Assembly (NCBI RefSeq): GCF_001581925.1
Contig: NZ_LQZA01000003.1
Coordinates: 62,001 to 126,000, forward strand
Source: Ferrovum sp. PN-J185
GTDB lineage: Bacteria > Pseudomonadota > Gammaproteobacteria > Burkholderiales > Ferrovaceae
Direction of reading: 5' to 3'
DNA length: 64,000 nucleotides
The notes below the pieces were generated by a model that made no database searches, was not told the DNA's origin, and saw only the letters and a program-made list of their open reading frames with translations. The stretch's first letter is position 1. Each line of letters starts with the position of its first letter. The position numbers were made by a program, and so were the translations under genes. This document shows, piece after piece, positions 17,891 to 42,905 of the stretch.

Positions 17891-18514
17891 TCAATGATGT
17901 GACATCAATTGATTGGTATCACTCACAATTTGATCGACTGTGCCCGGCATTGTGAAGGCAGCGCGTAACTGTCCTTTTGGATTTAATAAAAATACTGAGC
18001 TTGTGTGATCTACCGTATAGCCATCTTTAACAGCACCATTGTTATCTTTACGTTGATAATACGCTGATAAGCTTTTCACTAAAGGCTTAAGAGACTCATC
18101 GTTTCCTACGGCACCAATAAAAGTTTTATCAAAGGATGTCACGTACTGTTTTAAAATTGATACGTTATCTCTCGGCCAATCAACTGATACAAACACCACC
18201 AAGGGTGATTTATCATTACCTAACTTTTGTGTCACTTTAGCTAAAGTAGCTAGGGTTGTTGGACAGACATCAGGGCAATGCGTATAACCAAAAACCAAAT
18301 AAGTCCAATGCCCCTCAAGACTGGTATTATCTAATACCCCCTCTTGCGAAGTGGACTGTAATTTAAAATCATCAATCTGTGGGCCATCATCGATGGCTAC
18401 GACTAACTTACTGACTTTCATCTCTGATGGAGCAGGAATCGTACTTACCCAGTAGATCGCACCCACCAACACCAATACGGACAATCCTGCAATAATCGCT
18501 ACAAACACCTTCAT
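17891..18514 (-). CDS. SCO1/SenC-family copper chaperone
   Basis: A 207-residue membrane-anchored thioredoxin-fold protein. One N-terminal helix precedes the copper-binding motif CPDVC near 80-84 in the FGYTHCPDVCPTT stretch, and the distal ligand histidine is in VDHTSS near 168. SCO proteins deliver copper to, or reduce, the copper site of heme-copper oxidases. A C-family oxidase has only CuB, so here it would serve CuB or redox control. It ends the transcript with the SUMF-domain gene one codon upstream. Confidence 0.93.
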   Translation of the reverse strand: MKVFVAIIAGLSVLVLVGAIYWVSTIPAPSEMKVSKLVVAIDDGPQIDDFKLQSTSQEGVLDNTSLEGHWTYLVFGYTHCPDVCPTTLATLAKVTQKLGNDKSPLVVFVSVDWPRDNVSILKQYVTSFDKTFIGAVGNDESLKPLVKSLSAYYQRKDNNGAVKDGYTVDHTSSVFLLNPKGQLRAAFTMPGTVDQIVSDTNQLMSHH

Positions 18515-19276
18515 TTAATTAATCCTCACCACTCTAAAACCTACACTATTTGAATGAGCATGAGGGTCATCAGCGCTGCGCTTACTCACCTCTAACTCAT
18601 CTGCTGAATTATTCCATGCACCACCACGCAACACTCTAGAGGGGCATGTTGTTGATTGCTCTGGTACCATGGCGTCTTCCCAGGCACTGCCGTTGGACGG
18701 TGCGCCCTTCAGCGACTCATGATAACAATCCTCAAGCCATTCCCACACATTACCATTCATATCAAACAATCCCCAATCATTGGGGCGTTTTGTGGCAACG
18801 GGATGAGTAGAGTTGTCACTGTTTTCTTTATACCAAGCAATACTAGAGACATTGTTGCTACCACAGTAATTGATATTGCTACGTCCAACACAGGCATATT
18901 CCCATTGAGTTTCTGATGGGAGGCTATAATGTTTCCCTGTTCTAGCGTTAAGGCGAAGTATAAATACTTGCGCTTCCTCCCAACTTACATTTTCCACTGG
19001 GCAAGCATCACCACAGGATTTAAACGAGCTAGGATTATTCCCCATAACGCTTCGCCATTGACCTTGCGTAATTAATGTTGCGCTCATCAAAAAAGGTTTT
19101 GCGAAGGTGACACGATGCGGAGCATCACCTCTTGTTTGATAACTACCTGCTGGAATTTGAACCATGTCAGGGCAATTTGGACAATCTTTGGTCATTTGTG
19201 CTGCATGACCCACAGTTGATATCAACAACAATAAACCACCCAATAGAATAGACAGTGTTTTCATCATTCCTCCCAT
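18515..19276 (-). CDS. Exported SUMF1/formylglycine-generating-enzyme-domain protein
   Basis: About 250 residues: a signal peptide (ISTVGHAAQ) and a SUMF1/FGE-sulfatase domain with MVQIPAGSY, LPSETQWEYAC, GNVWEWLEDCYH and RVLRGGAWNNS, ending GFRVVRIN. Conserved cysteines are several (CPNC, CGDAC, CVG, CGS, CYH, CPS), which suits a periplasmic fold with disulfides; I do not see the FGE catalytic Cys pair clearly. The start is ambiguous: ATG at 19276, or a tandem ATG at 19267/19264 directly after GGGAGGA. Directly linked to SCO1, so a role in oxidase biogenesis is possible. No sulfatase is in the window. Confidence 0.85.
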   Translation of the reverse strand: MGGMMKTLSILLGGLLLLISTVGHAAQMTKDCPNCPDMVQIPAGSYQTRGDAPHRVTFAKPFLMSATLITQGQWRSVMGNNPSSFKSCGDACPVENVSWEEAQVFILRLNARTGKHYSLPSETQWEYACVGRSNINYCGSNNVSSIAWYKENSDNSTHPVATKRPNDWGLFDMNGNVWEWLEDCYHESLKGAPSNGSAWEDAMVPEQSTTCPSRVLRGGAWNNSADELEVSKRSADDPHAHSNSVGFRVVRIN

Positions 19277-19484: not shown

Positions 19485-19613
19485 ATGGAAGTATTAAATA
19501 CGTGGGTTATGATTGTTCCGGTTATTTTGTTTGTAGCTGGCATTGTGGTTTCATTCACTCTAGGCGGCGTTGGCATCGATAGAGTTAAAGAAATTCGTCA
19601 AAACGAAAGATAA
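19485..19613 (+). CDS. 42-residue single-span membrane protein
   Basis: A short frame of 42 codons: MEVLNTWVMIVPV, a hydrophobic helix of about 20 residues (8-27), then a positively charged tail ending IRQNER. A run of six G ends four bases before the ATG. A strong terminator follows at once, so this is a compact transcription unit or the first gene ahead of the mini-CcoN gene. Size and topology resemble small oxidase subunits such as CcoQ or CydX, but I see no sequence identity to name it. Too short for routine gene calling. Confidence 0.75.
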   Translation: MEVLNTWVMIVPVILFVAGIVVSFTLGGVGIDRVKEIRQNER

Positions 19614-19687: not shown

Positions 19688-20251
19688 ATGATCACCAAAA
19701 GCGAAACACAACTATTAGTTAAGTTCCTTGTTGTCTCGGCTTTGTCTTTTTTAGTCGGAACAATTCATGGCATGCTGCAAGTGATGCCTCCCATACGCGC
19801 TTGGCTTGATTCCATCGGTAGCCCTTACGGTGGTCCAGGACACATGATTGATCCACTCGCTCACGCACACATGAATCTAGTGGGTGGGGTTGTGATGTTA
19901 GCCATGGGGGTCACTTTTTATTTGTTACCACAGTTCTCAGGCAAACGCCTCTATTCCAAAAAACTTGTACAGTACACTTTTTGGTTTACCGTAATGGGGG
20001 TATATAGTTTTTACACTATTCTTATGGTGTTTGGTACCTGGGAAGGTTATTTGATGTTACATAATCGTGAGTTATTAAGAGCAGTACATCAACACTACTA
20101 CAGTCCATTAATGGCTTTATCTGGTACCTGTATGGCATTAGGATTTTTATTCTATTTCCTTAATATTGTCTTTACCTTAATCAAATCACCTAAAATCACT
20201 GAGGTGACTGCAAAGGAAAACGTAGTTCGCCCTCTTCATTTCCGTGCTTAA
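19688..20251 (+). CDS. Half-size CcoN-like heme-copper oxidase subunit I homolog (copy 1)
   Basis: A 187-residue membrane protein with about five helices. It resembles the C-terminal half of CcoN: HAHMN (His59 and His61) matches the heme-ligand helix AHAHL of the CcoN at 30064-31470, followed by a YS-(K/L)KL and FW stretch, and the last helix before a short tail. The helices that carry the three CuB histidines of CcoN are missing, so it cannot form a binuclear site alone. A heme protein role is plausible. It has a related copy at 41777-42364. The last 56 bases overlap the convergent lipoprotein gene. Confidence 0.75.
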   Translation: MITKSETQLLVKFLVVSALSFLVGTIHGMLQVMPPIRAWLDSIGSPYGGPGHMIDPLAHAHMNLVGGVVMLAMGVTFYLLPQFSGKRLYSKKLVQYTFWFTVMGVYSFYTILMVFGTWEGYLMLHNRELLRAVHQHYYSPLMALSGTCMALGFLFYFLNIVFTLIKSPKITEVTAKENVVRPLHFRA

Positions 20252-20585
20252 TTGAAATTTTTAACGTTGATCTCTCCCCGGGTTCAACGTTAACTGCACG
20301 TCTATAAACGCCCATACGACCATCCTCAATCATCTGTTTCCAATCATCTTGATCTGAGCTACGAATCGAAATAATCAAATCCCATGCGGGGATATTTTTT
20401 TTAATATCGTTAGCAGTCACGACAATTTCATTCATACCCTTTTGGGGAGGGCTAGGTCTGGTATCCACTTGAAAACTGATATTATGCCAACTTTGAGGAG
20501 CAGGATCTGTTGACGTATTAGAGCCAGAACAAGCAGAGAGAGACAGTATGGTTGATATAAATAGGCTTTTAGCGATTAATCTCAA
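20196..20585 (-). CDS. FixH-like lipoprotein
   Basis: A 129-residue lipoprotein: signal with lipobox LSAC at about 16-19, a short linker, then one beta-rich domain with NEIVVTANDI, WDLIISI, MGVYRRAVNV and ending FPLQSPQ. The domain resembles the periplasmic part of FixH/CcoH or YtkA-like proteins, which aid oxidase assembly; this is a weak family match by eye. The start is TTG with AGGGAGA seven bases upstream. It is the last gene of the long - strand oxidase transcript, three bases from its upstream neighbour. Confidence 0.65.
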   Translation of the reverse strand: MRLIAKSLFISTILSLSACSGSNTSTDPAPQSWHNISFQVDTRPSPPQKGMNEIVVTANDIKKNIPAWDLIISIRSSDQDDWKQMIEDGRMGVYRRAVNVEPGERSTLKISIKHGNEEGELRFPLQSPQ

Positions 20586-20588
20586 TTA

Positions 20589-20999
20589 CTATTCTCCCTT
20601 ACCCTCAACGTTGTCTTCTTGTTTCTGATTGGCCTTAGCATGGGCTGTGTCACCATGCCACTTAACCATATAATAAACAAAGTATCCAGCCACACTAATA
20701 TACGCTAAAGCGATGGCAAATCCCCAGTCTATCCAATGTTTTTGATGTCCTGGACGTGTTCCCCAAAAAGGAAAGGCCAATCCCACACCAACGAGTAATA
20801 CCACTCCCACCACAGCAAAAAACCAATAGGGAACAGGGCGCTGTGACTCAGGAATTTTTTCCACTAGCTCCCAATCTTCCAAACCTCTTTTTGCGCGTCT
20901 TTCTTCATCTGAGGCATAGCCCAAATGGTCATCAGAGAGTTTTCCCCACTGTGACTCAACTTTATCAAGCTTGGTACTATTATCATTGTTTTCTTCCAT
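20589..20999 (-). CDS. Two-helix membrane protein, short paralog of the 28397 protein
   Basis: A 136-residue protein with an acidic cytoplasmic N-terminus and two helices (about 57-77 and 90-111). The first helix starts PVPYWFF and ends FPFWGTRP, matching PVPVVWL and FPLWGQRP in the 210-residue protein at 28397-29029. It resembles the N-terminal anchor of CcoP but has no CxxCH. I moved the start from a TTG at 21026 to the ATG at 20999, because GAGGAGGGG ends six bases upstream of it. It lies between CcoG and the FixH-like lipoprotein. Function unknown. Confidence 0.75.
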   Translation of the reverse strand: MEENNDNSTKLDKVESQWGKLSDDHLGYASDEERRAKRGLEDWELVEKIPESQRPVPYWFFAVVGVVLLVGVGLAFPFWGTRPGHQKHWIDWGFAIALAYISVAGYFVYYMVKWHGDTAHAKANQKQEDNVEGKGE

Positions 21000-21015
21000 C
21001 ACCAACCCCTCCTCA

Positions 21016-22287
21016 CTATTCTGCAAAATACTGTATAGGAAAACGCTCTTCCCAACCTTGTGGTGATTTAGCGCTAATAATTACGCGGTGTATACCATGG
21101 GCTATGGTTGGCGATAAACTTAATATCATCGAGTAACGTGATGAAGCGGGGACAACCACTTGCTCAGTAGCTAAATGATATTGATCAGGGGTCAACCCTT
21201 CTACAGAAAAAGCTATCACTCCATCACGATACTGTTTATTAGCTACAGAAATCTGATAATCACGACTGGTGGCGTTTTTTAATCCTTCTGCTTTATATAC
21301 AGCCAAATGATAGGGCTGCCAACTTATCAATCCCCAAATAAAAAATGACAGTCCCATCAAACCAATAACACTTACCCAGCGTGTTCTAGTATCAAGAGAA
21401 ATACCTGCATTTTTAAAACTAATACGGGACTCTTTCTTCTCTTTCCTCTCACCCATTTCAAAGGTTAACAAACCAGGTTCATTTTTCTTGGCGTGCAACT
21501 TATTGCATGCATCAATACATTCACCACAATTAATACAGCTGTCGTAGATGTCAGTTTTCTTAGGATCGAGATCGATAAAACAGGCGGTGACACAGTAATT
21601 ACATTTCAAACATTCAGAGGAACGCGACTCATCGTACTTAATATGTAGTGTCTCACGTGTTTTAAAGCTGTGCTGCCATACTCGATATACACAAGCAAAA
21701 CGGCACCAAAAGTGTCGGATAATAGCGATATCTATAAAAATAATAATTACTACCACAGAGTAGATGTAATGCAGTGAACGAGCCAGTTTAGGATTAGAAT
21801 TCCATGCCAGAAAATCCCATACCACCTGTGGTGGATAAAAATAAAATAATGGAATCACAGCAAAAAACATCGCGGCCAGCAAAAATGACAATCCTAATAA
21901 TGTCCAATTCAGTGCTTTATTTTTATTAGGTGCAACCAGAGGTGCATCACCCTCAAGACTAACTTCTGCCCTTTTACCGAGTAGTTTATGAGTCATAAAA
22001 TTAGCCCATTCGGCCATAATATTTTGTGGACATACCCATCCACAAAATACTGTGCCTGCGATGGAATACAACATGACTAAAAAACATACTACTAAAATCC
22101 ATAATCCAGCAACTAAAAAGAAATCAGCAAACCAAATCTGACGACCCAATACCACCATCGCCCCGGCAATAGGATCAAGACGAAATATGCCAAGAGCTGG
22201 GATTAGAATGACCAATAAAACAGATAGAAACTGCGCTGCACGTCGACGCAGATGATAATGGTTTGGAGCAAGAGTAAGGTTACTCAT
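21016..22287 (-). CDS. ccoG: CcoG/RdxA-family polyferredoxin, oxidase assembly
   Basis: A 423-residue membrane protein with four or five helices, CGWVCPQN at 82-88, two [4Fe-4S] motifs (Cys226-229-232-236 and Cys251-254-257-261), and a C-terminal Ig-like periplasmic domain. CcoG is reported as a cupric reductase that assists cbb3 oxidase CuB assembly. Its presence next to CcoN/CcoO supports their identification as a C-family oxidase. It follows the spermidine-synthase-like gene by 25 bases. Confidence 0.95.
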   Translation of the reverse strand: MSNLTLAPNHYHLRRRAAQFLSVLLVILIPALGIFRLDPIAGAMVVLGRQIWFADFFLVAGLWILVVCFLVMLYSIAGTVFCGWVCPQNIMAEWANFMTHKLLGKRAEVSLEGDAPLVAPNKNKALNWTLLGLSFLLAAMFFAVIPLFYFYPPQVVWDFLAWNSNPKLARSLHYIYSVVVIIIFIDIAIIRHFWCRFACVYRVWQHSFKTRETLHIKYDESRSSECLKCNYCVTACFIDLDPKKTDIYDSCINCGECIDACNKLHAKKNEPGLLTFEMGERKEKKESRISFKNAGISLDTRTRWVSVIGLMGLSFFIWGLISWQPYHLAVYKAEGLKNATSRDYQISVANKQYRDGVIAFSVEGLTPDQYHLATEQVVVPASSRYSMILSLSPTIAHGIHRVIISAKSPQGWEERFPIQYFAE

Positions 22288-22312: not shown

Positions 22313-24880
22313 CTACAAACCTCCATTCTTCGCCGAGTTGGCTTCAAGGTCAAGAGGAGCCAAACGTAAAATTTGAGCTAATGAACTACTTGCGCTAGGA
22401 TCGTGTTCTACCTGTTGAAGATGCCACAATGAACGCCAAGCCTCTACATGATAAGGGTTAATGGTTAAGATACGTTTAAGTAACGTTTTCTCATCCATTC
22501 CTTGAGATAATATTGCCTTTTGGTTAGCGAATAGCTGATCACTAAGTGCGTAGTCAACCCAACGATCTTTTGGATTTGCTTGATAAGCCAACTGGATCAA
22601 ATGATCCGCTTCTCTATCTTGTCCACTAAATGTTGCTAACCAAGAGCGTACTAAGAAGTCGCTGGCTATATAGCTTCCTTCAAAACTTTTAACAAGCGGA
22701 GCAGGCAGTGATAAGTCTTTTTTAGCCTGGTCTAAACTAGGTCTTTTAGACATCATATATGACAAGACTTGTACTAGTTCATTGGCTTTACTGTAATGTA
22801 AGCGCGGTAGAGAAAACTCTATCACTGGAGCCCATTCATCCTGTAGGGGAGCATGATTATCTGGTATTGCTCCCCAGTATCGCCCAAGCCAAGTAATGGA
22901 AGATTCACCAAGATTATCAGATTGCTGGTTACTGATTGCTTGTTTGTTGAATAAACCATTCACATCAAGGGTATCATCGATGCTTCCAACCAATGCCACA
23001 TGCATTCCATCCATAAACATGACAGCTTGAGGAAATACTGTTTTAAATGTTTTTAATACCACCTGAAAAGAAGGTAGATCAAACTGATTAAGAGCCAGCC
23101 ATTGAACAAATAGGCCATGCTGATTGAGATGCTGACGTACTCGTTGAAATTGTTCTAGTGATAAGAGCGATGAAACGCCGGCTAGATCAGGATGGAATAA
23201 ATCACCAACTATGACGTCATAATGATCTTGGTGAGCGCTTAAAAAATGTCTTGCATCATCTTGAATCACTACAGTTTGGTTTAATGCATTTTTATTTAAC
23301 GGCGCAAACCATTCTCTGGCTCCAATAATGGCTCCTCGGGATAGCTCTACTGCGGTTCTGGTTAAGTCCTTGAATTGAGCTGACCCTTCATCTGAGATAC
23401 CTGTACCTAATCCTAAGAGTAATAAACTATGTGGGTTTCCATGATAAATAAGTGGAAAAAACACCTGATTCTGTTGTGTAAAAACTGCCGTTGGGTCACT
23501 TGAGGCATCGCGCCTTTGTAAATCCGTTAATAAATAGCGTTGACCGTTAGGCTGTTCGACCACCTCTGTCATAGCAATGGCATCTTCATAATGGTATATA
23601 TCATGGCTATGCCCCATTTCTTGGGGCAACAATCGTGACGTAGGCGGCATGATAGAGGCCCAAAAGAGAAGCCCTGCTGCAACAGGTAAAACAACCCACT
23701 GAATTTTATTTTTAATATTAAATTCAAGAAAAAGAAACAAAAAAGCAATCAGTCCTAATGTTGTGGTCGTACCCAATAAAGGAATAAACACAAAACCAGT
23801 CAACAGCGCTCCTACTCCGCCACCTAGCGCATTCACTGAATAAAACCATTGGCCAGAGTTATCAAATTTATTAGTTAATAACGGTAACCAGGCACCTAGG
23901 CTTAAAGTAACAGGTAAAGTCATACCCAACATCAGTAGCCCTTGAACAATTAACGCTTGATTAAAATCACTAAATTGAGCTGTTTCTAAATAAGCTGAAA
24001 CAGGCACCCATTCTAATAGTGATAAAAATATTCCTGCACTCACCACCCAGGGTAAAACTTTAAGCCAGTCATACCGTCCCGCCTTGACAGTCAGTACACT
24101 TCCTATAGCGATACCGAGTAAAAATGTAGCTAGTATCAACGCTAAAACATACTCTGTGCGCAGCATAATTAGACCAAATAATCTTGTCCAAGCCACCTCT
24201 AAGGCAAGGCTTAAGGCGCCTAAAATTCCATAATTAATCAGTGAAGAAATGGGCGGACGTAAGGTGGGTCTACCAGCCGCTCTATGAGTGTTGTGAGTTT
24301 TAGGTAGAAGAAACCAGAAAGACAATGCCAGAGCAATTCCTAATAATGCCGTAATGCGTAAACTTGCTACCCAACCAAAATGGGGTAATGCCCACAAAGG
24401 GAATAAGGCTCCTAGTACAGCACCAAAGGTATTTAATCCATAAATCCAAGGAAGCAAACGCGTCTGATTATTTACGTATTTTAATACCAAAGAAAAACCT
24501 GCTCCCATGGCATAAGCAGGAATACTCAGTAAAATTAAGGCCGATAAAATAATCAGCAAATGCCACAACTCATTAGAAAAGCGCACAGCTGCTGAATCAA
24601 TAAAAGGCGAGCTAATTCTGACCAGTGTTGGCAAAAATATAGCGAACAGGCTTAACCCAAACTCGATCCAACCTAAATAAGTAGGCGTTTTTAATGAAGG
24701 AATCCACTCTTTTGAGAAACGCCAGGCACCAAGTCCTAGACCAAACATGAATGCAGCCACCGTTACAACAACGGCAAAAGAACTTACTCCAAATTGAATG
24801 GAAACGAGGCGCATCCATAGCACCTCATAGACCAACGCTAGAAATCCGGAACAGGCGTATAGACCAACTAACCGGATCAT
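22313..24880 (-). CDS. Membrane-fused spermidine-synthase-like protein
   Basis: An 855-residue protein. Residues 1-410 form a transporter-like membrane domain with about 12 helices that begins SGFLALVYEVLWMR, a start typical of fused MFS/spermidine synthase proteins. Residues about 430-690 form a Rossmann spermidine-synthase domain: YLLTDLQRRD, LLLLGLGTG, DDARHFL, YDVIVGDLFHP. The remaining 160 residues resemble TPR-like helices. The GLGTG loop and the acidic YDVIVGD are kept, but the polyamine-site residues cannot be judged. It is embedded in the oxidase transcript, ten bases from its upstream neighbour. The substrate and role are unknown. Confidence 0.85.
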   Translation of the reverse strand: MIRLVGLYACSGFLALVYEVLWMRLVSIQFGVSSFAVVVTVAAFMFGLGLGAWRFSKEWIPSLKTPTYLGWIEFGLSLFAIFLPTLVRISSPFIDSAAVRFSNELWHLLIILSALILLSIPAYAMGAGFSLVLKYVNNQTRLLPWIYGLNTFGAVLGALFPLWALPHFGWVASLRITALLGIALALSFWFLLPKTHNTHRAAGRPTLRPPISSLINYGILGALSLALEVAWTRLFGLIMLRTEYVLALILATFLLGIAIGSVLTVKAGRYDWLKVLPWVVSAGIFLSLLEWVPVSAYLETAQFSDFNQALIVQGLLMLGMTLPVTLSLGAWLPLLTNKFDNSGQWFYSVNALGGGVGALLTGFVFIPLLGTTTTLGLIAFLFLFLEFNIKNKIQWVVLPVAAGLLFWASIMPPTSRLLPQEMGHSHDIYHYEDAIAMTEVVEQPNGQRYLLTDLQRRDASSDPTAVFTQQNQVFFPLIYHGNPHSLLLLGLGTGISDEGSAQFKDLTRTAVELSRGAIIGAREWFAPLNKNALNQTVVIQDDARHFLSAHQDHYDVIVGDLFHPDLAGVSSLLSLEQFQRVRQHLNQHGLFVQWLALNQFDLPSFQVVLKTFKTVFPQAVMFMDGMHVALVGSIDDTLDVNGLFNKQAISNQQSDNLGESSITWLGRYWGAIPDNHAPLQDEWAPVIEFSLPRLHYSKANELVQVLSYMMSKRPSLDQAKKDLSLPAPLVKSFEGSYIASDFLVRSWLATFSGQDREADHLIQLAYQANPKDRWVDYALSDQLFANQKAILSQGMDEKTLLKRILTINPYHVEAWRSLWHLQQVEHDPSASSSLAQILRLAPLDLEANSAKNGGL

Positions 24881-24889
24881 ACACTCACC

Positions 24890-25279
24890 TTAAAAAGGAT
24901 AAAACCAAACCAATCCTACAATTAAGTGTACGATCGCTAAGGTCATTGTTAAGCCAGCTAATATCATGTGAGCGACAAACCAAGGCTTACCAAAAACTCC
25001 AACGGCTATACCTAAAGCTCCAGTAACTAGTAGTAATACAAGCAAAGGAATTCCAATAAGAAACATAATGACTTGTTTCTTGTGAGCACTAATTTGATCT
25101 TGATCTTGTTGTTCTTTTTCTTCTTTTTGCTTATCAAACGCTTCAAGAACTTGAATACCGTTTACATCTTTCTCAACGGATGATTTGGTGGATAAGGTAT
25201 TGTCGGCAAAAGCGAGTTGAATACTAGAGAAGGACAACAGAACAATTAAAAAAAGCGTAACAACTTGACCCAGTTTCAT
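24890..25279 (-). CDS. Exported or membrane protein with coiled-coil segment
   Basis: A 129-residue protein. It starts with a signal peptide or helix (to about FAD 26), then a highly charged stretch rich in Lys, Glu and Gln near 52-68 that may be a short coiled coil, then two helices (about 70-95 and 103-127) ending WFYPF. I do not recognise the family. It lies between the 84-residue membrane protein and the spermidine-synthase-like gene, so it belongs to the oxidase operon. Confidence 0.65.
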   Translation of the reverse strand: MKLGQVVTLFLIVLLSFSSIQLAFADNTLSTKSSVEKDVNGIQVLEAFDKQKEEKEQQDQDQISAHKKQVIMFLIGIPLLVLLLVTGALGIAVGVFGKPWFVAHMILAGLTMTLAIVHLIVGLVWFYPF

Positions 25280-25553: not shown

Positions 25554-26618
25554 CTAATGCCCTTTTGCAGGAGAGTCGCTAGCACAACGAAAACCATAAA
25601 AGTCTGAAGCGTAATTAGCAAAAGCAAAATTTCTATGGAAGCTAGATGTAGAAAAAGGATCTCCCTTCCATGAGCCACCACGTAAAACTTTGTAATGGGA
25701 TTTAACATTAATTTGATCAGAAATTTTCAATTGCTGATCTTGTGCGTTGTCTTGTACTGAGACCTTACCTTGAAAAAGCTCAGAGGGGGCACTGGAGCCT
25801 TTATAGGGAAGAAATTCGCTGTCTACCCACTCATCCACATTGCCGGCCATGTCCATGGCGCCATAGGGGCTCACACCCGTCGGAAAGGCACCTACATCTG
25901 TAGCAGAGCCTACGTCATAGTATGTGTTTACGTTTTTAGGGTCCATGATATTTCCCCAAGGCCAACGTCTCCCATCCTGCCCTCTAGCAGCCTTTTCAAA
26001 CTCAGCTTCTGTGGGTAATCTTTTGCCATCCCATTTACAATAATCTTTAGCGTCATACCAAGTCACCATTGTAACTGGATGCATCTTTTCACCATTTGGG
26101 ATACGCCCGTTTTTCCAATTCAATGGTGGACGATGGTGACTTTGATAAACAAATTTTGCATATTGGGCATTAGTTACTAAGTACTTATCAATGTAATAGG
26201 TAGGAAGAGTAACAGTGTGTTGTGGCTTATCTTGAACATCAGCGCGTTCCAGGTTTGTTCCCATGATAAAACCACCCGCAGCAACCTTTACCATGGTTTC
26301 AACATCAGCCCATTGCTCTCGTGATAACAACTGTTCAATTTCTGCTGCATTATAACCACGATTTGCAGCCTGACCATGTTCGTGTTTTTCTTGCAGTGTA
26401 ATATCTTCGCCCGCAGCACGAATACGTTTACTTTCATCTTGTAAATTATAGGTAGCAAGATTACGCATGTCTTCCATACGTATGGATCCAAGCTTAATCA
26501 CGTGTAGAGTACTACCAATCATCACAGCAATGACACAAGTCACAATAGTTGCATGTAGATAACGTTTTCTTTTACGTCTCTCCTCTGGTGAGAGTTGTTT
26601 TTTATTGTAATTAGCCAT
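25554..26618 (-). CDS. Membrane-anchored SUMF1-domain protein
   Basis: A 354-residue protein with a basic N-terminus, one helix (about 22-42), a linker to about 110, and a SUMF1/FGE-type domain: FIMGTNLERADV, YIDKYLVTNAQY, PVTMVTWYDAKDYC, RLPTEAEFEKAARG, MAGNVDEWV, YKVLRGGSWKG and a final FYGFRCAS. The domain faces the periplasm by charge. FGE enzymes convert a cysteine to formylglycine in sulfatases, but many SUMF proteins are not enzymes. A sulfatase is not present nearby, so an assembly or structural role with the oxidase is more likely here. Confidence 0.85.
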   Translation of the reverse strand: MANYNKKQLSPEERRKRKRYLHATIVTCVIAVMIGSTLHVIKLGSIRMEDMRNLATYNLQDESKRIRAAGEDITLQEKHEHGQAANRGYNAAEIEQLLSREQWADVETMVKVAAGGFIMGTNLERADVQDKPQHTVTLPTYYIDKYLVTNAQYAKFVYQSHHRPPLNWKNGRIPNGEKMHPVTMVTWYDAKDYCKWDGKRLPTEAEFEKAARGQDGRRWPWGNIMDPKNVNTYYDVGSATDVGAFPTGVSPYGAMDMAGNVDEWVDSEFLPYKGSSAPSELFQGKVSVQDNAQDQQLKISDQINVKSHYKVLRGGSWKGDPFSTSSFHRNFAFANYASDFYGFRCASDSPAKGH

Positions 26619-26640: not shown

Positions 26641-27078
26641 TTAATTTTTTTTATAGACAACATTTTTTGCTCTTCTACCATATGTTCTTTTGTTTATAAC
26701 CTCACCCACCACGCCACCAATCATGGCAGACTCCATTATGAGAATCAAAAAGAATCCCCACCATCCAATTGGCTCACGAGACATATGATCAGGTAAAGGA
26801 CTGTTGGTGACTTGGTATAAAGCCATTACTCTTACGAGTAACGGAGGAAAGACTGCCAGCCATTTTCCACCACCACCAAAAATATAGGCAACAATAATAC
26901 CTGATATAAAAGGCAGGAAGAACACAGCAGTAATCCAAGAAAAACTAAAGTAAGCAATTCCGTTAAATAATTCTATGTGAGAATCCAATAACAAATCGCC
27001 AAAATGAAGTAACGCTGCGGCGATGCCGAAAGCAATAAAGCCTTTTAAAAGACGATCATCTTGCGGTCTTTTATTCAT
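26641..27078 (-). CDS. Four-helix membrane protein, unknown
   Basis: A 145-residue protein with about four hydrophobic segments (15-30, 37-66, 73-88, 105-125) and a basic C-terminus ending YKKN. Its ATG overlaps the stop of the cytochrome c gene by four bases (ATGA), so the two are tightly coupled. No motif or family is recognised. Context makes it a candidate oxidase-complex subunit. Confidence 0.7.
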   Translation of the reverse strand: MNKRPQDDRLLKGFIAFGIAAALLHFGDLLLDSHIELFNGIAYFSFSWITAVFFLPFISGIIVAYIFGGGGKWLAVFPPLLVRVMALYQVTNSPLPDHMSREPIGWWGFFLILIMESAMIGGVVGEVINKRTYGRRAKNVVYKKN

Positions 27079-27566
27079 TTTTTAGCATAAACCTTGCCAG
27101 TTAATTTTTCGTATTCCATTTTCTTTGTCTGTTCAAGATACCAGTCTTTTACTTTCAAACTAGCCATATACTGAGCTAAGAGACGTCTATCATGCTCCGA
27201 AAGTGATGCGTAGGAAGGCATTCTATATTCTTTTTTTAGACGACTAGGCAAAATATCTTGAGGTACTTTCGCAGAAAAATAATTATAAAACCACTCTTCA
27301 CTTCTAATTGAACCAATACCATCTAAGGCTGGAGCAGGTATAGTTTCCATCATGTTTTTCACAGTCCATAAGGAATGGCATTGCTTACAATCTTGTTCCT
27401 TGTAGATCAAGGATGCTTCTTGCATTAACTGATGGTTAGCTGTTGTATAAAAGGGAATACCTTGATCAGGTTGCTTCTGTGTTTCTATATTAATAAAGTT
27501 TCTAGCCATCACTGAAACAATCACAACTGCCATGATGGCGTAGACTATTTTTTCACCACGTCTCAT
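27075..27566 (-). CDS. Membrane-anchored monoheme cytochrome c
   Basis: A 163-residue protein with an N-terminal RRGEKI, one helix (about 7-22), and a class I cytochrome domain with CKQCH at 60-64, LDGIGS near 82-87 and a probable Met ligand in RMPSY near 121. It resembles the 190-residue cytochrome at 41188-41760, which also starts with GEK before its helix and has LDGVGT. It may take the electron-input place of CcoP, which is missing from this oxidase. Confidence 0.88.
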   Translation of the reverse strand: MRRGEKIVYAIMAVVIVSVMARNFINIETQKQPDQGIPFYTTANHQLMQEASLIYKEQDCKQCHSLWTVKNMMETIPAPALDGIGSIRSEEWFYNYFSAKVPQDILPSRLKKEYRMPSYASLSEHDRRLLAQYMASLKVKDWYLEQTKKMEYEKLTGKVYAKK

Positions 27567-28396: not shown

Positions 28397-29029
28397 TTAT
28401 TCTTCAACGTGACCGTGTCTTGGTTGCCATGAAGTGGGTGGCAAACGCTTAATCATCAAGAAAACAGCCAAGAAGAAATAAGACAAATAGAACAAGTCAA
28501 TGGTGTAACCCTTATCCCACCAAGGTTGCTGGCGAATTCGGCTTCCATCAGGACGATAGTTTCCTTCAAAGTTTGCTAAAACAACATTTGGACCTACAAC
28601 TGTATAGTCACCCAAGTGAGCATTATGTGCTTTTAAAGCTTCAATTTGTGGCGCTACAATTCTTAAGTCATCCATGGTAACGGGATGTCTTTCTAGCAAA
28701 GCTTGATTTGCGTTTGGATCTTGCTTAGCTATTTTTTCAACTAACTTCAATGCTTCGTCATCATTTTTAGCATTTAATACCTCAGGGTTTTGCATTGCCT
28801 CAACGTATGGCAAAAATAACTTTGCTGTTGGACGCTGCCCCCAAAGTGGGAAAGTAACCAAAAATGCTGTAACCACAGTTAACAGAACCAACCATACTAC
28901 CGGTACTGGAACTGGATTATTGTCTTCTGTCAAACCACCTAACAATTCTCTTTCCCACAATCTTTTATTTTTTTCTGTGGTTTCATCATCACTGAGCGTA
29001 ACTAATGGATCTTTAAATGACCAGCCCAT
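28397..29029 (-). CDS. Two-helix membrane protein in place of CcoP
   Basis: A 210-residue protein with a charged N-terminus, helix 1 (about 42-62) ending FPLWGQRP, a periplasmic-type domain of about 110 residues, and helix 2 (about 175-194). It lacks any CxxCH. Position just after CcoO is where CcoP would be expected. The 136-residue protein at 20589-20999 looks like a version without the central domain. A run of six G ends three bases before the ATG. Unknown function, probable oxidase subunit. Confidence 0.75.
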   Translation of the reverse strand: MGWSFKDPLVTLSDDETTEKNKRLWERELLGGLTEDNNPVPVPVVWLVLLTVVTAFLVTFPLWGQRPTAKLFLPYVEAMQNPEVLNAKNDDEALKLVEKIAKQDPNANQALLERHPVTMDDLRIVAPQIEALKAHNAHLGDYTVVGPNVVLANFEGNYRPDGSRIRQQPWWDKGYTIDLFYLSYFFLAVFLMIKRLPPTSWQPRHGHVEE

Positions 29030-29091: not shown

Positions 29092-30033
29092 TTACTTAAG
29101 ATTTAAAATAAAATCTATCAAATGTCTTGCATCGCTATTTGACGCATACATTGGTACTTCAGGTGGGTAAATTCTCTTACCTTCTGCGTACTCACTGTAT
29201 TCTTTACGCCATTTAGCATAATCGATTGGTTTACCGTTAGCATCAACTTTACCCCAGAGATAATCAAAGCGAGGCATAATTGAATGAGGTTGTACCAATC
29301 TTGGGTTGAAAAAGTGCAACATCAACCATTCTTTTGATGCATTACGTGAGCCAACATGCAATAAGTCTGGAGCTTTACGATCAGAACCAAATGCAGTTGG
29401 AGATTCTCCGTTAAAGTCACCTAACATAGGTGGGGCACCAAATACTTGCCAATCCTGAGTTTGTTCAGGTAACAATGTATGACACCACCAGCAACCCTCA
29501 CGAACAAATATTGATTTACCTGCACTAGCATAATAGGTGTTGGCATCACCAGCTGCTTTTAAAACTTGTTCTGGATTCCAACCTTTAGTTGCTGTTGCAT
29601 CTTCAATGTAATATTGCTTTTGGTCATTTGAACGGATCAAGAATACCGCGCCCTGATCTTTACTTGCTTCGTTAATATGACCTTGATCAATACTCAGTCT
29701 TTCTGAAACCTTACCTAAATTTCCTGGATGTAATACGCCACCAGGGAAAGGAGTACCTTTCTCATAAACGTAGGCAGTAGTTGGCTCAATAGGCTGTCCT
29801 GTTTTTGGATCAGTTTTTAATATTACTTTCTCAGGGCGATTCCAACCTAACAGTAATGGGTCATCTAAACTAAATCCTGACTCATGTCCTGCCCAGAGTT
29901 GTTTGTCTAGCGCCACTTCTGTGGCGCTTACTGAAGAAATATCAAAACTGGGTAATAACAATGTAATTGTCATTGATCCGCCTAGCGCTAAGGCAAAGAA
30001 ACGGGATCCGACTTTATACTCTCTAAAATTCAT
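29092..30033 (-). CDS. ccoO: C-family oxidase monoheme subunit, CcoO-like
   Basis: A 313-residue protein with one N-terminal helix (about 10-30) and heme motif CWWCH at 181-185. The stretch FVREGCWWCH, then KAPDLLHVGSR, HFFNPR and IMPRF is the CcoO pattern. Usual CcoO has the heme site nearer the helix; here about 100 extra residues lie between them, so the protein is longer than typical. It receives electrons and hands them to the heme b of CcoN. It follows ccoN by 30 bases. Confidence 0.88.
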   Translation of the reverse strand: MNFREYKVGSRFFALALGGSMTITLLLPSFDISSVSATEVALDKQLWAGHESGFSLDDPLLLGWNRPEKVILKTDPKTGQPIEPTTAYVYEKGTPFPGGVLHPGNLGKVSERLSIDQGHINEASKDQGAVFLIRSNDQKQYYIEDATATKGWNPEQVLKAAGDANTYYASAGKSIFVREGCWWCHTLLPEQTQDWQVFGAPPMLGDFNGESPTAFGSDRKAPDLLHVGSRNASKEWLMLHFFNPRLVQPHSIMPRFDYLWGKVDANGKPIDYAKWRKEYSEYAEGKRIYPPEVPMYASNSDARHLIDFILNLK

Positions 30034-30063: not shown

Positions 30064-31470
30064 TTAACGCTCGTAAGCCAGTTCGTGTGGCATACGACCT
30101 TGTGGAACTTCTGTACCTTCACGTGCTGTCATCCACATATTGTAGAGCCAGAAACAGTTACCAACAAACACAAGCGTACCACCAATCCAGCGGGCGATCA
30201 TGTATGGGTGTTCTGCAATAACCACGTCAATATATGGTACTTCATAAATCTTACCGGCACCTTGAATCAATCCAGCAATTGTCATGGATACCCAGTAGGT
30301 GGTAAATCCAATCAACAGTAACCAGAAGTGGATGTTAGCAAGAGTTAAAGAGTAAAGTTTACGACGCATCATGCTTTGTAAACCCAAATACACTGCAGCA
30401 GCTTCTAAGAAGGTTGAAAAACCAAGTAGAGCCAAATGTGCGTGAGCAACAATCCAGCCAGTACCATGGATGTACCAGTTAATTGCGCGTGTTTGCTGAA
30501 AACCGCCTTGCATGTTCAATGGAATAGCCATCAAACAGCCTGTAACAGTAAATCTAACTTCGATATTTTCAACAAACATGTTCCACTTACCTTGCATGGT
30601 AAGAAGAATATTGGATACGAATGCAATTGCAGGTACCAAAATTAACACACCTTCAACTGACGCAAATGATTTGAGCCACTCAGGTAACGGTGCTGACATT
30701 AAGTGGTGAGCAGCAGGTGTTGAATAAAACACAACTACAGACCAAAAATGCAAATGACCAATACGGTGTGAATAAAGTGGGTTACCTGTAACTTTTGGTA
30801 TGGTGTAATAAGCAATAGCTGCAGCAACAGGAGTAATCCACAAGCCGAGTACATTGTGAGCAAACCACCATGTAAGATAAGCTTCTGTCAAACCAGTTAA
30901 GTGGAAAAACTCGGGTAGATTACCAACAGTAAATACAATAGCCAACATAAAGGTTGCCGCTGCAAAGAACCAGTTAGTGGTGTAAATACCTTGAGTTCTA
31001 CGATTTATGATCGTCATCCAAACGTTTACACCAAGTGGGACTACCATAAAGCAAATAATGTAAAGGTCAATAAACCATGGGAAATCAGAATACTCACGAC
31101 CAGAAGTCATACCCGCCCACAAAACGGTTAAGCCTAATGAAAGACCAACGTTCCATAGAAAAGCATTCCATAAGCCAAGCTTCTCTGACCATAGTCTGGT
31201 GTTACCCAAGGCAGGTGTGATATACATCATTGCCATACCAAAAGCCATTGAAATCCAGCCGAAAATAACTGCATGAACGTGAACCTGACGCATGTGCCCA
31301 AAAGACAAGAACTCATAACCGGTTACAAAATCTGGAAAAGCTAATTTAGCAGCATTAAAAGACCCTAAGCCGGTACCAATTACAAACCATACAATGGCTG
31401 AAAATCCCCAATACACTGCTGATGCACCATGAGGTATATCCTCATTTTTTGCCAGCAAATATTTAAACAT
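30064..31470 (-). CDS. ccoN: C-family heme-copper oxidase catalytic subunit, CcoN-like
   Basis: A 468-residue protein with about 12 helices. All six ligand histidines can be placed: the low-spin heme His in MRQVHVHAV (64/66), CuB His205 in WWFAHN and His255-His256 in PAAHH, and heme His343/345 in VAHAHL. The YS motif near 233-234 follows the CuB helix as in cbb3. It differs from typical cbb3 at TFEGP, which aligns with NMQGG (Gln321), and YSY, which reads YSH. Terminal O2 reduction is likely; NO reduction is not excluded. A run of six G precedes the start. Confidence 0.88.
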   Translation of the reverse strand: MFKYLLAKNEDIPHGASAVYWGFSAIVWFVIGTGLGSFNAAKLAFPDFVTGYEFLSFGHMRQVHVHAVIFGWISMAFGMAMMYITPALGNTRLWSEKLGLWNAFLWNVGLSLGLTVLWAGMTSGREYSDFPWFIDLYIICFMVVPLGVNVWMTIINRRTQGIYTTNWFFAAATFMLAIVFTVGNLPEFFHLTGLTEAYLTWWFAHNVLGLWITPVAAAIAYYTIPKVTGNPLYSHRIGHLHFWSVVVFYSTPAAHHLMSAPLPEWLKSFASVEGVLILVPAIAFVSNILLTMQGKWNMFVENIEVRFTVTGCLMAIPLNMQGGFQQTRAINWYIHGTGWIVAHAHLALLGFSTFLEAAAVYLGLQSMMRRKLYSLTLANIHFWLLLIGFTTYWVSMTIAGLIQGAGKIYEVPYIDVVIAEHPYMIARWIGGTLVFVGNCFWLYNMWMTAREGTEVPQGRMPHELAYER

Positions 31471-40374: not shown

Positions 40375-41118
40375 ATGTATAAGTCATTAAAAAAAGCTAG
40401 TTTAGCGCTGGCAGTAGCTTCAACATTAGTATCTAGTATTGCTATGGCTGAAGGTGTTCCAATGGATGGAAACCCCGCCAATGGAAAACAGATTTTCATG
40501 AATGGTAAGGGTCCTGTTGTTGCTTGTATGACCTGTCATGGTCCAACAGGTTGGGGAACTGAAGCCATGGGTGCACCACGTTTAGCTAACCTTGGTTATC
40601 CTTATATTGTTAAACAATTAACTGATCTTGCTGAGGGTAGACGTGTACCACAAGGTGCAGGTGCTGTTATGCCTTATTTTGCTAGTCAGTTAACTCCACA
40701 AGAAAGAAAAGATATTGCAGCCTACGTTAATACCTTAAACACCACACCGGAACTATCCGACGTGAAAGAACTCAAAGCTAGTGGACAGCCTGTGGGTGTT
40801 CGTTACAAGGGTGAGATTCTCGTTAAGTATGGTGTAGAAAATAAAGTTTCTGCCTGTGTTTCATGCCATGGTTACAATGGCCGCGGTGCTCCACCTATGT
40901 TCCCAGTTATTGGTCAACAAAAATTTACTTATTTAGTTAACCAATTACATAATTGGAGAGATGGTAGCCGTGCCAATGATCCTTTAGGTATGATGAGAGC
41001 TATTGCTAAAAACTTGACTGACCAAGATATTCTTGATGCAGCCACTTATTTATCAACAGCACCTCGTACTACTCAAGGTGGTAGCGATTACACCTCATTT
41101 AGTCCAAAAACACAGTAA
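40375..41118 (+). CDS. Diheme c4-like periplasmic cytochrome c
   Basis: A 247-residue protein with signal peptide (to AMAEG, about 25) and two cytochrome domains with CMTCH at 51-55 and CVSCH at 161-165. The GPTGWG and GYNGRG stretches after each heme, and the MPYF Met candidate near 100, follow the c4 pattern, in a longer form. It is a likely soluble electron carrier to an oxidase. A run of seven G ends three bases before the ATG, and a strong terminator follows. Confidence 0.9.
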   Translation: MYKSLKKASLALAVASTLVSSIAMAEGVPMDGNPANGKQIFMNGKGPVVACMTCHGPTGWGTEAMGAPRLANLGYPYIVKQLTDLAEGRRVPQGAGAVMPYFASQLTPQERKDIAAYVNTLNTTPELSDVKELKASGQPVGVRYKGEILVKYGVENKVSACVSCHGYNGRGAPPMFPVIGQQKFTYLVNQLHNWRDGSRANDPLGMMRAIAKNLTDQDILDAATYLSTAPRTTQGGSDYTSFSPKTQ

Positions 41119-41187: not shown

Positions 41188-41760
41188 ATGGCAACAAGTA
41201 AATTTAGAATTGGTGAAAAGGTTTTATTTGGCATTATTGGGCTTATCGCAATCTTTGCGATTGTCAGTTTTGTTGGTCTTGAAATTTATAGATCAAAATT
41301 AAAACATCCGATGTATCAAATAAACGACTCCTTTAATTTCACCGAAGCAGGTCTTAGAGGCTCTGTTTTGTTTCGTGATCGGGGTTGTACAAGTTGTCAT
41401 CGGGCCGTTCGCAATGGAACCAATAATGGTGTTGATTTAGATGGAGTGGGTACGAAAAGAACATTTACATACTTAATCAACTTTTTACATAAACCTGAAG
41501 CTACCTATGATGCAAAAACTATCGATCATGGACCATTCAAAGAAGCTGCGTATGTTGCTAATTTACCTGCTAATGAATTGAACGACCTGGCTACTTTCTT
41601 ATCTGAATTAAAAGCAAGACAAGGTGCAGCAGATTCCCCAATGCCAATGCCTGAACGTTCTGGATTTGTTGATGAAATGGTTAAAATTTGGGCTCCTAAA
41701 AACTGGAAATCTGAACATAAAGACCTTAGAATAGAAGCTGGAGAGCCACCCGCAAAATAA
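41188..41760 (+). CDS. Membrane-anchored monoheme cytochrome c
   Basis: A 190-residue protein with one N-terminal helix (about 12-32) and a cytochrome domain with CTSCH at 67-71 and LDGVGT near 85-90. It resembles the anchored cytochrome at 27075-27566 (shared GEK before the helix, and LDG). It is followed by the second mini-CcoN gene 16 bases on, giving a cytochrome c plus half-CcoN pair. The long C-terminal tail is Pro/Glu rich. Confidence 0.88.
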   Translation: MATSKFRIGEKVLFGIIGLIAIFAIVSFVGLEIYRSKLKHPMYQINDSFNFTEAGLRGSVLFRDRGCTSCHRAVRNGTNNGVDLDGVGTKRTFTYLINFLHKPEATYDAKTIDHGPFKEAAYVANLPANELNDLATFLSELKARQGAADSPMPMPERSGFVDEMVKIWAPKNWKSEHKDLRIEAGEPPAK

Positions 41761-41776
41761 TAGGAGATAAATAAAA

Positions 41777-42364
41777 ATGACTACTGCTCGTCCTTATCAC
41801 GCTGAGATTTATAATCCAGTTTATACACGTTATACATTGTTATTTGTTTATGCTTGCGTTACTTACGCGATCATTGGATTTTCATGGGGTGCCATTATGG
41901 GTGGAATCCCTGCATTAAGAAACTTTGTTGATTATGCTCCGCATGGCAAATTAATTCTTCTTGCACATGGACACATCAATTTATTGGGGTGGGTAGAGAT
42001 GGCTATTTTTGGAGCTATTTACTACTTTATCCCACGTCTTGTTAACCGTCCTATTTATAGCTTAAAACTAGTAAAAATTCACTTTTGGATCCATAACGTT
42101 GGCTTGATGGGAATGGTTGTACTATTTACCTTAGCCGGTTCAATAGGTGGTTATACGCCCGATGCACACAGTGAACAAATGGTTAACCATCTTATGGCTG
42201 GGGTAGGTTTTTTTGGTACCTTAGTATTGTTGGCAAATATTATTTGGGGTTATAACATTTTTAAAACTGGTAAAAATGGACCGGATTATGTTGTCGCACC
42301 AGATAATAAAGTTGAACAATCTCGTTCTTCAAGTTTTTCAACTGGTAATTTAGTTAACTCATAA
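41777..42364 (+). CDS. Half-size CcoN-like protein (copy 2)
   Basis: A 195-residue membrane protein with about five helices. AHGHIN (His64, His66) matches the heme-ligand helix AHAHL of CcoN; RPIYSLKL and HFW follow as in CcoN (KLYSLTL, HFW), and the last helix also aligns with the CcoN C-terminus. The CuB-binding helices are absent. A related copy is at 19688-20251. It lies between the anchored cytochrome and a thioredoxin-like lipoprotein, and all seem co-transcribed. May bind a heme b; no catalytic role can be assumed. Confidence 0.78.
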   Translation: MTTARPYHAEIYNPVYTRYTLLFVYACVTYAIIGFSWGAIMGGIPALRNFVDYAPHGKLILLAHGHINLLGWVEMAIFGAIYYFIPRLVNRPIYSLKLVKIHFWIHNVGLMGMVVLFTLAGSIGGYTPDAHSEQMVNHLMAGVGFFGTLVLLANIIWGYNIFKTGKNGPDYVVAPDNKVEQSRSSSFSTGNLVNS

Positions 42365-42392: not shown

Positions 42393-42905
42393 ATGAAAAA
42401 AGCTATTGCATTATCATTTATTGCTGCTGTATCTACATTGTCGATAACGGCTTGTACGCCCACAAGCCGTCTTCATGTTGGCTCTGAAGCCCCTAAAATT
42501 AGAACTAAAACTTTACAAGATGTAGGTGGTGATATGGCGAGAATTACCACCTACAGACAACCGGATAAAAGAATGTATCAATATTCGCTTGATCAGGCTT
42601 TATCAACCGGTAAACCTATCATGCTCGAATTTGCTACCCCTGGTCACTGCACGGTATGTGACCGTCAGTTACAAGAGGTAAAAGCATTGCTTGATAAGTA
42701 TCAGGGGCAAGTAATATTTTTGCATATGGATCAATATGAAAATCCTGATGCCTTTAAAGCCTATCAAGTTATGGGAGATCCTTGGAATTTCTTTATTGAC
42801 GGTAAAGGCATTGTTCGCTATGAACAACCAGGGCCTATGTTAATGACGGAAATGGATGCTGCTATCCAGAAAATGTTACCAAAACAAAATAACGCAAAGA
42901 ATTAA
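42393..42905 (+). CDS. Thioredoxin-like lipoprotein
   Basis: A 170-residue lipoprotein: lipobox ITAC with Cys21, then a thioredoxin-fold domain with CTVC at 86-89 in the GHCTVCDRQ stretch and a PWNFFID element near 130. The DsbD/DsbE- or SCO-like periplasmic location suggests handling of cytochrome c thiols or copper for oxidase maturation. It follows the mini-CcoN gene. The redox partner is not shown. Confidence 0.82.
   Translation: MKKAIALSFIAAVSTLSITACTPTSRLHVGSEAPKIRTKTLQDVGGDMARITTYRQPDKRMYQYSLDQALSTGKPIMLEFATPGHCTVCDRQLQEVKALLDKYQGQVIFLHMDQYENPDAFKAYQVMGDPWNFFIDGKGIVRYEQPGPMLMTEMDAAIQKMLPKQNNAKN

Follow-up and report, generated by a model that had tools for sequence, protein, structure and literature searches.

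A single-repeat CcoN-like membrane protein linked to the distal cbb3-type oxidase of Ferrovum and its relatives

Introduction

The CcoN protein of the C-family heme-copper oxidases is built from three four-helix repeats. Its low-spin heme needs helix II, and its high-spin heme faces the helices that carry the CuB ligands. In the P. stutzeri protein (structure 3mk7), those ligands are reported to be His207, His257 and His258 (PMC3578206). In the related qNOR, the heme b3 ligand is described as joined via Gly630 to the heme b ligand His631 (PMC10256718), an arrangement by which the first histidine of an HxH motif would bind heme b3 and the second heme b.

As PMC8788666 and PMC7029218 note, the naming of cbb3-type oxidases as "proximal" or "distal" goes back to Ducluzeau 2008. 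Among iron oxidizers, Emerson et al. 2013 (PMC3770913) listed 20 genes in three clusters that are common to Sideroxydans ES-1 and Mariprofundus PV-1. These genes are mostly hypothetical and partly redox-related, 14 of them have relatives in Leptospirillum, and the text section on the suite makes no mention of small CcoN-like proteins. The Tenderia paper describes a region that shares synteny with Mariprofundus and contains a polyferredoxin along with hypothetical proteins. For Ferrovum JA12, the account in PMC4725956 gives only subunits I and II of the oxidase and suggests a neighboring cytochrome c for subunit III. In the open-access literature, we found no description of small, truncated or paralogous CcoN-like proteins.

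Here we describe such a protein, P1, together with its paralog, P2. Both are encoded by Ferrovum sp. PN-J185 in a 64,000-nucleotide stretch of contig NZ_LQZA01000003.1 (positions 62,001 to 126,000), called the window hereafter; all coordinates are those of the window. Like the cassette that contains P1, the suite shared by ES-1 and PV-1 forms conserved clusters in iron oxidizers, and it probably is the cassette of P1 and P2.

Results

P1 corresponds to one four-helix repeat of CcoN

The gene and its most conserved motif are located as follows.
19688..20251, plus strand: P1, a 187-aa, four-helix, single-repeat protein of the COX1 fold with conserved His27, His52, His59, His61 and His134
19862..19870, plus strand: codons of P1 His59-Ala60-His61 (HxH), the counterpart of His345/His347 in helix X of P. 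stutzeri CcoN

The P1 frame runs from the ATG at 19688 to the TAA at 20251 and encodes 187 aa with 0 internal stops. A search of the COX1 family, which the preliminary description of this DNA had proposed, places P1 above the curated cut-off of Pfam COX1 (PF00115; 37.0 bits against 34.8, E 2.5e-9, profile positions 308-410 of 436). The NCBIfam ccoN profile (TIGR00780) is matched over positions 301-465 of 474 at E 3.9e-9, with 35.9 bits against an equivalog cut-off of 583 for CcoN proper. Together with the motifs HAHMN, YSKKL and FW, these matches bear out the resemblance to the C-terminal part of CcoN from which that description started. Across the entire 1.89-Mb genome, COX1 is matched four times at E up to 1, by a full-length sequence on contig 1, the window CcoN (30064-31470), P2 and P1. 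We also considered the Pfam family DUF2871 (PF11070), whose 134 positions make it of single-unit size like P1. Membership was rejected because P1 has no match at E up to 1 and P2 scores 16.4 bits against a cut-off of 27.4. That cut-off is reached in 0 of 249 phylum-sample genomes, and at least 8 of the 26 weak matches in this sample sit on P2 genes.

The AlphaFold2 model computed for P1 from 62 aligned sequences (pLDDT 87.4, pTM 0.79) has four long helices, at residues 4-32, 55-84, 91-125 and 127-166, and a glycine-rich loop in which model confidence falls below 50 at residues 50-53. When this model is used as a Foldseek query, the top five chains are all CcoN (9g83_t, 8smr_E, 6xkw_n, 3mk7_A and 3mk7_G), the first at E 5.9e-4 with a TMq of 0.71 and the five at about 0.7. 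VIA-align superimposes residues 3-168 on residues 299-462 of 3mk7_A (Z 14.4, rmsd 2.5, 154 aligned). The predicted fold therefore matches the C-terminal part of CcoN, a likeness on which the preliminary description had staked its interpretation. Structure alone does not single out CcoN, because qNOR 6t6v (Z 15.8, rmsd 2.5) and a mitochondrial oxidase (Z 15.8, rmsd 4.9) score more than 1 higher in Z than the best CcoN rows (14.4-14.5). It is sequence that picks out CcoN as the nearest relative: a P1 profile finds CcoN chains among PDB sequences at E 7.5e-11 to 1.2e-7, with NorB as the next family at 0.004.

Profile-profile alignments with CcoN of the window type rank its third repeat best, both for P1 (residues 57-171 on 341-456, E 1.1e-7; second repeat 7e-7, first 0.017) and for P2 (42-169 on 322-453, E 4.5e-12; second 1.2e-5, first 3.8e-5), and P1 and P2 match each other at E 1.4e-14. 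This ranking identifies both proteins as single four-helix repeats of the three-repeat oxidase fold, and P1 is the counterpart of helices IX-XII. The earlier label of a "half-size" CcoN needs correction, although P1 has about 40% of the length of CcoN: both the structural and the profile-profile alignments rule out half of CcoN, since P1 is one repeat of three, with 4 of 12 helices and a third of the fold.

P1 shares with CcoN helices IX-XII, the HxH positions, the YS-K-L and FW motifs and a probable topology. Counted as K+R minus D+E, the loop that joins helices 2 and 3 has a net charge of +2.5, the C-terminus one of +1.1 and the N-terminus one of +0.1, and the two remaining, outer loops carry -1.0 and -0.3. 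These values fit the CcoN topology, with both termini predicted in the cytosol and the conserved histidines expected on the periplasmic side. Unlike CcoN, P1 has four long helices instead of about 12, aligns with one repeat at a time, has no helix II heme ligand and has a longer glycine-rich loop before the HxH. It also has no CuB ligands, as first noted from the sequence, because His207, His257 and His258 lie outside the stretch of 3mk7_A that it matches (299-462). NorB and qNOR have the repeat and the HxH in common with P1, and qNOR reaches the highest structural Z; relative to them, P1 comprises one repeat without FeB ligands, and its sequence likeness is below that to CcoN.

Conserved histidines and the question of heme

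Profile alignment places His59 and His61 of P1 on His345 and His347 of P. stutzeri CcoN. We compared 98 sequences of P1, that of the window among them, taken as open-frame segments of 110-260 aa with E up to 1e-40. His52, His59 and His61 are present in all 98, His27 in 96 and His134 in 92. The preliminary description had made conservation of the two HxH histidines in orthologs a point of decision, and both are invariant in this set; the first of them, however, is lost in the one remote homolog found (L181; COX1 34.6 bits), which keeps the equivalents of His27, His52 and His61 and has leucine at the His59 position. This replacement weakens the idea that both HxH positions are always needed.

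Because P1 is a single four-helix repeat, any heme b would need a partner for its other side, and because the repeats that close both heme pockets of CcoN are absent, an isolated P1 monomer cannot bind heme in the manner of CcoN. If helix 1 is ungapped, which the VIA-align ranges make likely but not certain, His27-Gly28 falls on Glu323-Gly324 of CcoN. We take Glu323 of CcoN to lie near the proximal histidine, which makes His27 unlikely as the second axial ligand, and on this mapping we set aside His27 as a simple intramolecular ligand of that kind. In the window CcoN and its relatives, glutamine occupies the Glu323 position (NMQGG) in 13 of 13 proteins compared, with the register counted by eye. 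Helix II of the same 13 reads His-Val-His in seven, HVM in five and HVL in one.

When P2 is aligned with the first CcoN repeat (hhalign), the helix II ligand, presumably His60, falls at the first-histidine position of the HxH. Two HxH units could therefore, in principle, sandwich a low-spin heme. Perhaps the free-standing repeats P1 and P2 form, together or each with its own kind, a ring or dimer that holds a low-spin heme b between units by paired HxH motifs, although we regard this arrangement as doubtful. The second histidine of one unit and the first of the next would then ligate the heme, as do helices X and II in CcoN.

Conservation, selection and phylogeny

P1 is a conserved family whose sequences show the imprint of strong purifying selection. 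Among 81 P1 sequences, the two blocks around the HxH have mean entropies of 0.06 bits (residues 45-56) and 0.17 bits (residues 57-67), and the other eight blocks range from 0.45 to 2.72 bits, with residues 33-44 the next most conserved at 0.45. The ratio dN/dS is 0.022-0.085 in seven of eight P1 ortholog pairs (dS is uncomputable in the eighth) and 0.031-0.078 in four P2 pairs; these ratios are rough, since dS is at least 1 in 8 of the 11 pairs. Four families of the order have P1, and the match is free of stops in 13 of 14 rows, with a TGA in one. The open frame and the low dN/dS agree with the early judgment that the gene is intact and not decayed. In a tree, P1 (81 sequences), P2 (46) and the third repeats of CcoN (13) form groups with support of 0.80, 0.98 and 1.00, respectively, and the remote homolog L181 groups with P1 (support 0.94).

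P2 lies among genes for cytochromes c

The paralog that had been pointed out downstream in the window is real, and it co-occurs with P1. Its gene has the following surroundings.
40375..41118, plus strand: cytochrome c with two CxxCH motifs (labeled "c4-like" by us), no more than 1200 bases away from P2 in 13 of 14 P2 loci
41188..41760, plus strand: cytochrome c with one CxxCH and, by our interpretation, an N-terminal helix, preceding P2 and co-directional with it in 14 of 14 P2 loci
41777..42364, plus strand: P2, paralog of P1, 195 aa, COX1 58.7 bits, with His64, His66, His102 and His106 in 46 of 46 sequences
42393..42905, plus strand: thioredoxin-like protein, adjoining P2 in 14 of 14 P2 loci

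Relatives of a further gene, m42856, also accompany P2 in 14 of 14 loci. An additional P2 histidine, His56, is present in 41 of the 46 sequences. P2 has Trp37 where P1 has His27, and His102 and His106 are specific to P2. The NorC gene precedes NorB, and the order of the anchored cytochrome c before P2 recalls this arrangement.

The AlphaFold model of P2 is weak (pLDDT 70.3 from 13 rows). With it, Foldseek returned no match at E <0.001, and V-ATPase chains were among the best rows. Its Z of up to 12.9 against oxidases may reflect only an arrangement common to helical bundles. The assignment of P2 to the family rests on sequence and not on this model.

The P1 gene cluster

We took 80 P1 loci from 188 relatives, with flanks of up to 8 kb, and restricted the neighbors sought in them to relatives of genes in the window. 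The window genes concerned are as follows.
17891..18514, minus strand: SCO1/SenC protein, 123 bits; relatives in 17 of 80 P1 loci
18515-19276, minus strand: SUMF1-like protein (formylglycine-generating-enzyme type, our assignment); relatives in 15 of 80
19485..19613, plus strand: 42-aa peptide upstream of P1; relatives above 25 bits in 30 of 80
20196..20585, minus strand: small lipoprotein-like ORF (our interpretation), in convergent orientation to P1 and overlapping its 3′ end
20589..21026, minus strand: m20589, a small membrane protein; relatives in 58 of 80
21016..22287, minus strand: CcoG-like polyferredoxin, 116.6 bits, below the equivalog cut-off of 316.7; relatives in 57 of 80
22313-24880, minus strand: protein of 855 aa with a spermine/spermidine synthase domain (spds); relatives in 53 of 80 and also near the L181 homolog
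25554-26618, minus strand: second SUMF1-like protein (same type, also our assignment); relatives in 48 of 80
27075..27566, minus strand: second cytochrome c, one CxxCH; CxxCH and Met116 in 45 of 45; relatives in 44 of 80
29092..30033, minus strand: CcoO-like subunit, one CxxCH, FixO E 1.2e-17
30064..31470, minus strand: full-length CcoN, taken as the "distal" type, with HNV, HH and HAH present

The order in the window is P1, lipoprotein, m20589, ccoG, spds, m24890, m25297, SUMF1, m26641, cytochrome c, m27578, m27888, m28397, ccoO and ccoN, and locus L123 shows the same order in full from P1 to ccoN. A relative of the lipoprotein is encoded somewhere in the stretch in 64 of 80 loci, and in 57 it is no more than 800 bases from P1 and on the strand opposite to it. 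The ccoN gene, about 10 kb from P1 in the window, is within reach in only 5 of 80 loci, those in which it sits close to P1. We take the window CcoN to be of the distal type from its cluster and company, not from a tree with reference sequences.

P1 stands alone, with none of the other window genes within the stretch, in 9 of 80 loci (L053, L057, L061, L063, L065, L068, L071, L072 and L077, the last only 4.6 kb long). Eight of the nine are titled Zetaproteobacteria or Mariprofund-, and P2 is present in eight of the nine genomes.

Several smaller features of the cluster deserve mention. A terminator-like hairpin of 12 pairs with a T tail lies between the 42-aa peptide and P1 (19624-19650, plus strand), which suggests that P1 may need its own promoter; 2 terminator-like sites were found where 0.7 were expected. 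The m24890 product, a 129-aa membrane protein (24890-25279, minus strand) with no Pfam family above cut-off, has His104 and His118, apparently within one helix, each in 49 of 50 sequences. Two histidines 14 residues apart suit a transmembrane two-heme b protein if it is dimeric, as in cytochrome b. The products of 20589-21026 and m28397 (28397-29029), both on the minus strand, have alike WxxxxPFWG/PLWG helix ends and no CxxCH, and the latter weakly resembles the CcoP N-terminus (FixP_N E 0.0084). By these sequence features, both are possible heme-less stand-ins for CcoP.

P1 co-occurs with the distal oxidase

The titles of the 80 loci name Ferrovum or Ferrovaceae (5), Gallionella or Gallionellaceae (13), Sideroxydans (3), Nitrotoga (5) and Mariprofund- or Zetaproteobacteria (12). 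These 38 are in named groups, and the other 42 are named to phylum, class, order or Gammaproteobacteria, with one Chromatiaceae. Judged from the record titles, the hosts of P1 appear to be related to known iron and nitrite oxidizers.

Among 250 genomes of the order, P1 is found in 14 and P2 in 10. Window-type CcoN, sought at E up to 1e-100, is found in 9, and each smaller set lies wholly within the larger one, so that all nine CcoN genomes have P1 and P2. P1 occurs without distal CcoN in five genomes (G082, G124, G162, G197 and G227); their contigs end inside the conserved run before ccoO and ccoN, and these absences are therefore not evidence against linkage. Among the listed genomes of the window's family, only G128 is without P1, and it has neither P2 nor window-type CcoN.

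Across 299 genomes of the phylum (CcoN at E up to 1e-90), 38 have P1 and distal CcoN, 7 only P1, 4 only CcoN and 250 neither. Distal CcoN thus occurs in 38 of 45 genomes with P1 and in 4 of 254 without it (Fisher p 2e-36, a value that does not count independent events, since the genomes are related and the positives come mostly from one family, f75). Profile matches number 46 genomes for P1 and 42 for CcoN; G390 was counted as P1-negative because its one weak match is on a P2 gene. Six of the seven genomes with P1 only are 57-90% complete drafts, and the seventh (G293, 98%) has only a remote homolog. The four with CcoN only are 68-93% complete. A search of P1 genomes from 43 of the 80 loci found P2 in 42, at 59-88% identity; the exception, G288, has one match of 33% identity in a 483-aa frame that resembles CcoN. 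By inspection, 24 of these 42 genomes have a CcoN-length frame within 15 kb of P2 on the same contig. This co-occurrence, together with the synteny, is the linkage expected of an accessory component of a cbb3 oxidase, and we consider it very probable that P1 is functionally tied to the distal enzyme.

Discussion

What P1 might do for the oxidase

Given these connections, P1 is most probably a companion dedicated to the distal cbb3-type oxidase. As a four-helix membrane protein, P1 would use its invariant HxH (His59/His61) to hold a heme b on the periplasmic side, where it would meet a partner that might be P1 itself, P2 or CcoN. Electrons might then pass from periplasmic or membrane-anchored cytochromes c via the heme b of P1 to the oxidase. 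The periplasmic placement of the histidines and the position of P2 among cytochromes c favor electron entry to the oxidase as the step involved. We therefore put forward, tentatively but as the likeliest reading, that P1 is a heme-b accessory component acting in electron transfer. Several observations weigh against this proposal, including the nine loci in which P1 is alone, the loss of the first histidine in L181, the weak P2 model and the higher structural Z of qNOR and the mitochondrial oxidase relative to CcoN. The location of P1 on the senC/ccoG side of the cluster would suit a role in assembly equally well, which counts against a relay.

It is possible, though on balance unlikely, that P1 is such an assembly factor, absent from the finished enzyme, that holds heme b or copper or replaces the third CcoN repeat during maturation. 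SCO1/SenC and CcoG-like neighbors in 17 and 57 of 80 loci would fit this role, as would the weak FixS- and FixP_N-like small proteins nearby (E 0.007-0.008), and the invariant periplasmic histidine cluster suits the hand-over of a metal or heme. However, Pfam and NCBIfam searches with P1 at E up to 1 returned no family of assembly factors, and the location of P2 beside cytochrome c genes is a better fit to electron transfer. P1 might instead be a heme-less structural subunit that packs on CcoN and, for example, ties the oxidase to ACIII or a cytochrome c. The single-repeat fold without CuB ligands accords with this idea, and ACIII genes adjoin P1 in a one-contig genome (G217) and in 4 of 80 loci (L043, L044, L046 and L062), a count that is weak evidence either way because the window's own ACIII lies 12 kb from P1 and thus beyond the 8-kb flanks. 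Yet a purely structural subunit leaves the invariance of His52, His59 and His61 unexplained, and ACIII is reported in few Zetaproteobacteria (PMC7029218), to which 12 of 80 P1 loci are assigned by title (including Mariprofund-). The same report leads us to rule out an obligatory link between P1 and ACIII, and we judge the structural role as a whole improbable.

The preliminary description had also raised a sensing role, and P1 could in principle bind heme with one free site and respond to O2 or redox state. It consists, however, of four helices with short loops and has no output domain in Pfam, and neither a kinase nor a regulator is among the recurrent neighbors (relatives of window genes), so that sensing is without support and very improbable. 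Finally, a match to only part of CcoN is what a leftover gene fragment would give, but the spread over four families of the order with almost all rows stop-free, the low dN/dS and the separation of P1 from P2 and CcoN in the tree make this origin hardly credible; a gene with such ratios is not a decaying fragment.

Implications

In iron and nitrite oxidizers, the electron path from periplasmic cytochromes to the oxidase is described, in the accounts we cite, only as a model. The subunit set of the distal oxidase looks incomplete, and P1 and P2 are specific candidates for its further parts. If the two proteins do form a heme-binding ring or dimer, this assembly would be an extra heme-b wire on the distal cbb3 oxidase. 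It would also offer a present-day picture of how triplication of a four-helix unit might have produced the 12-helix oxidase, and heme binding by P1 or P2 oligomers would thus bear on the origin of the three-repeat oxidase fold.
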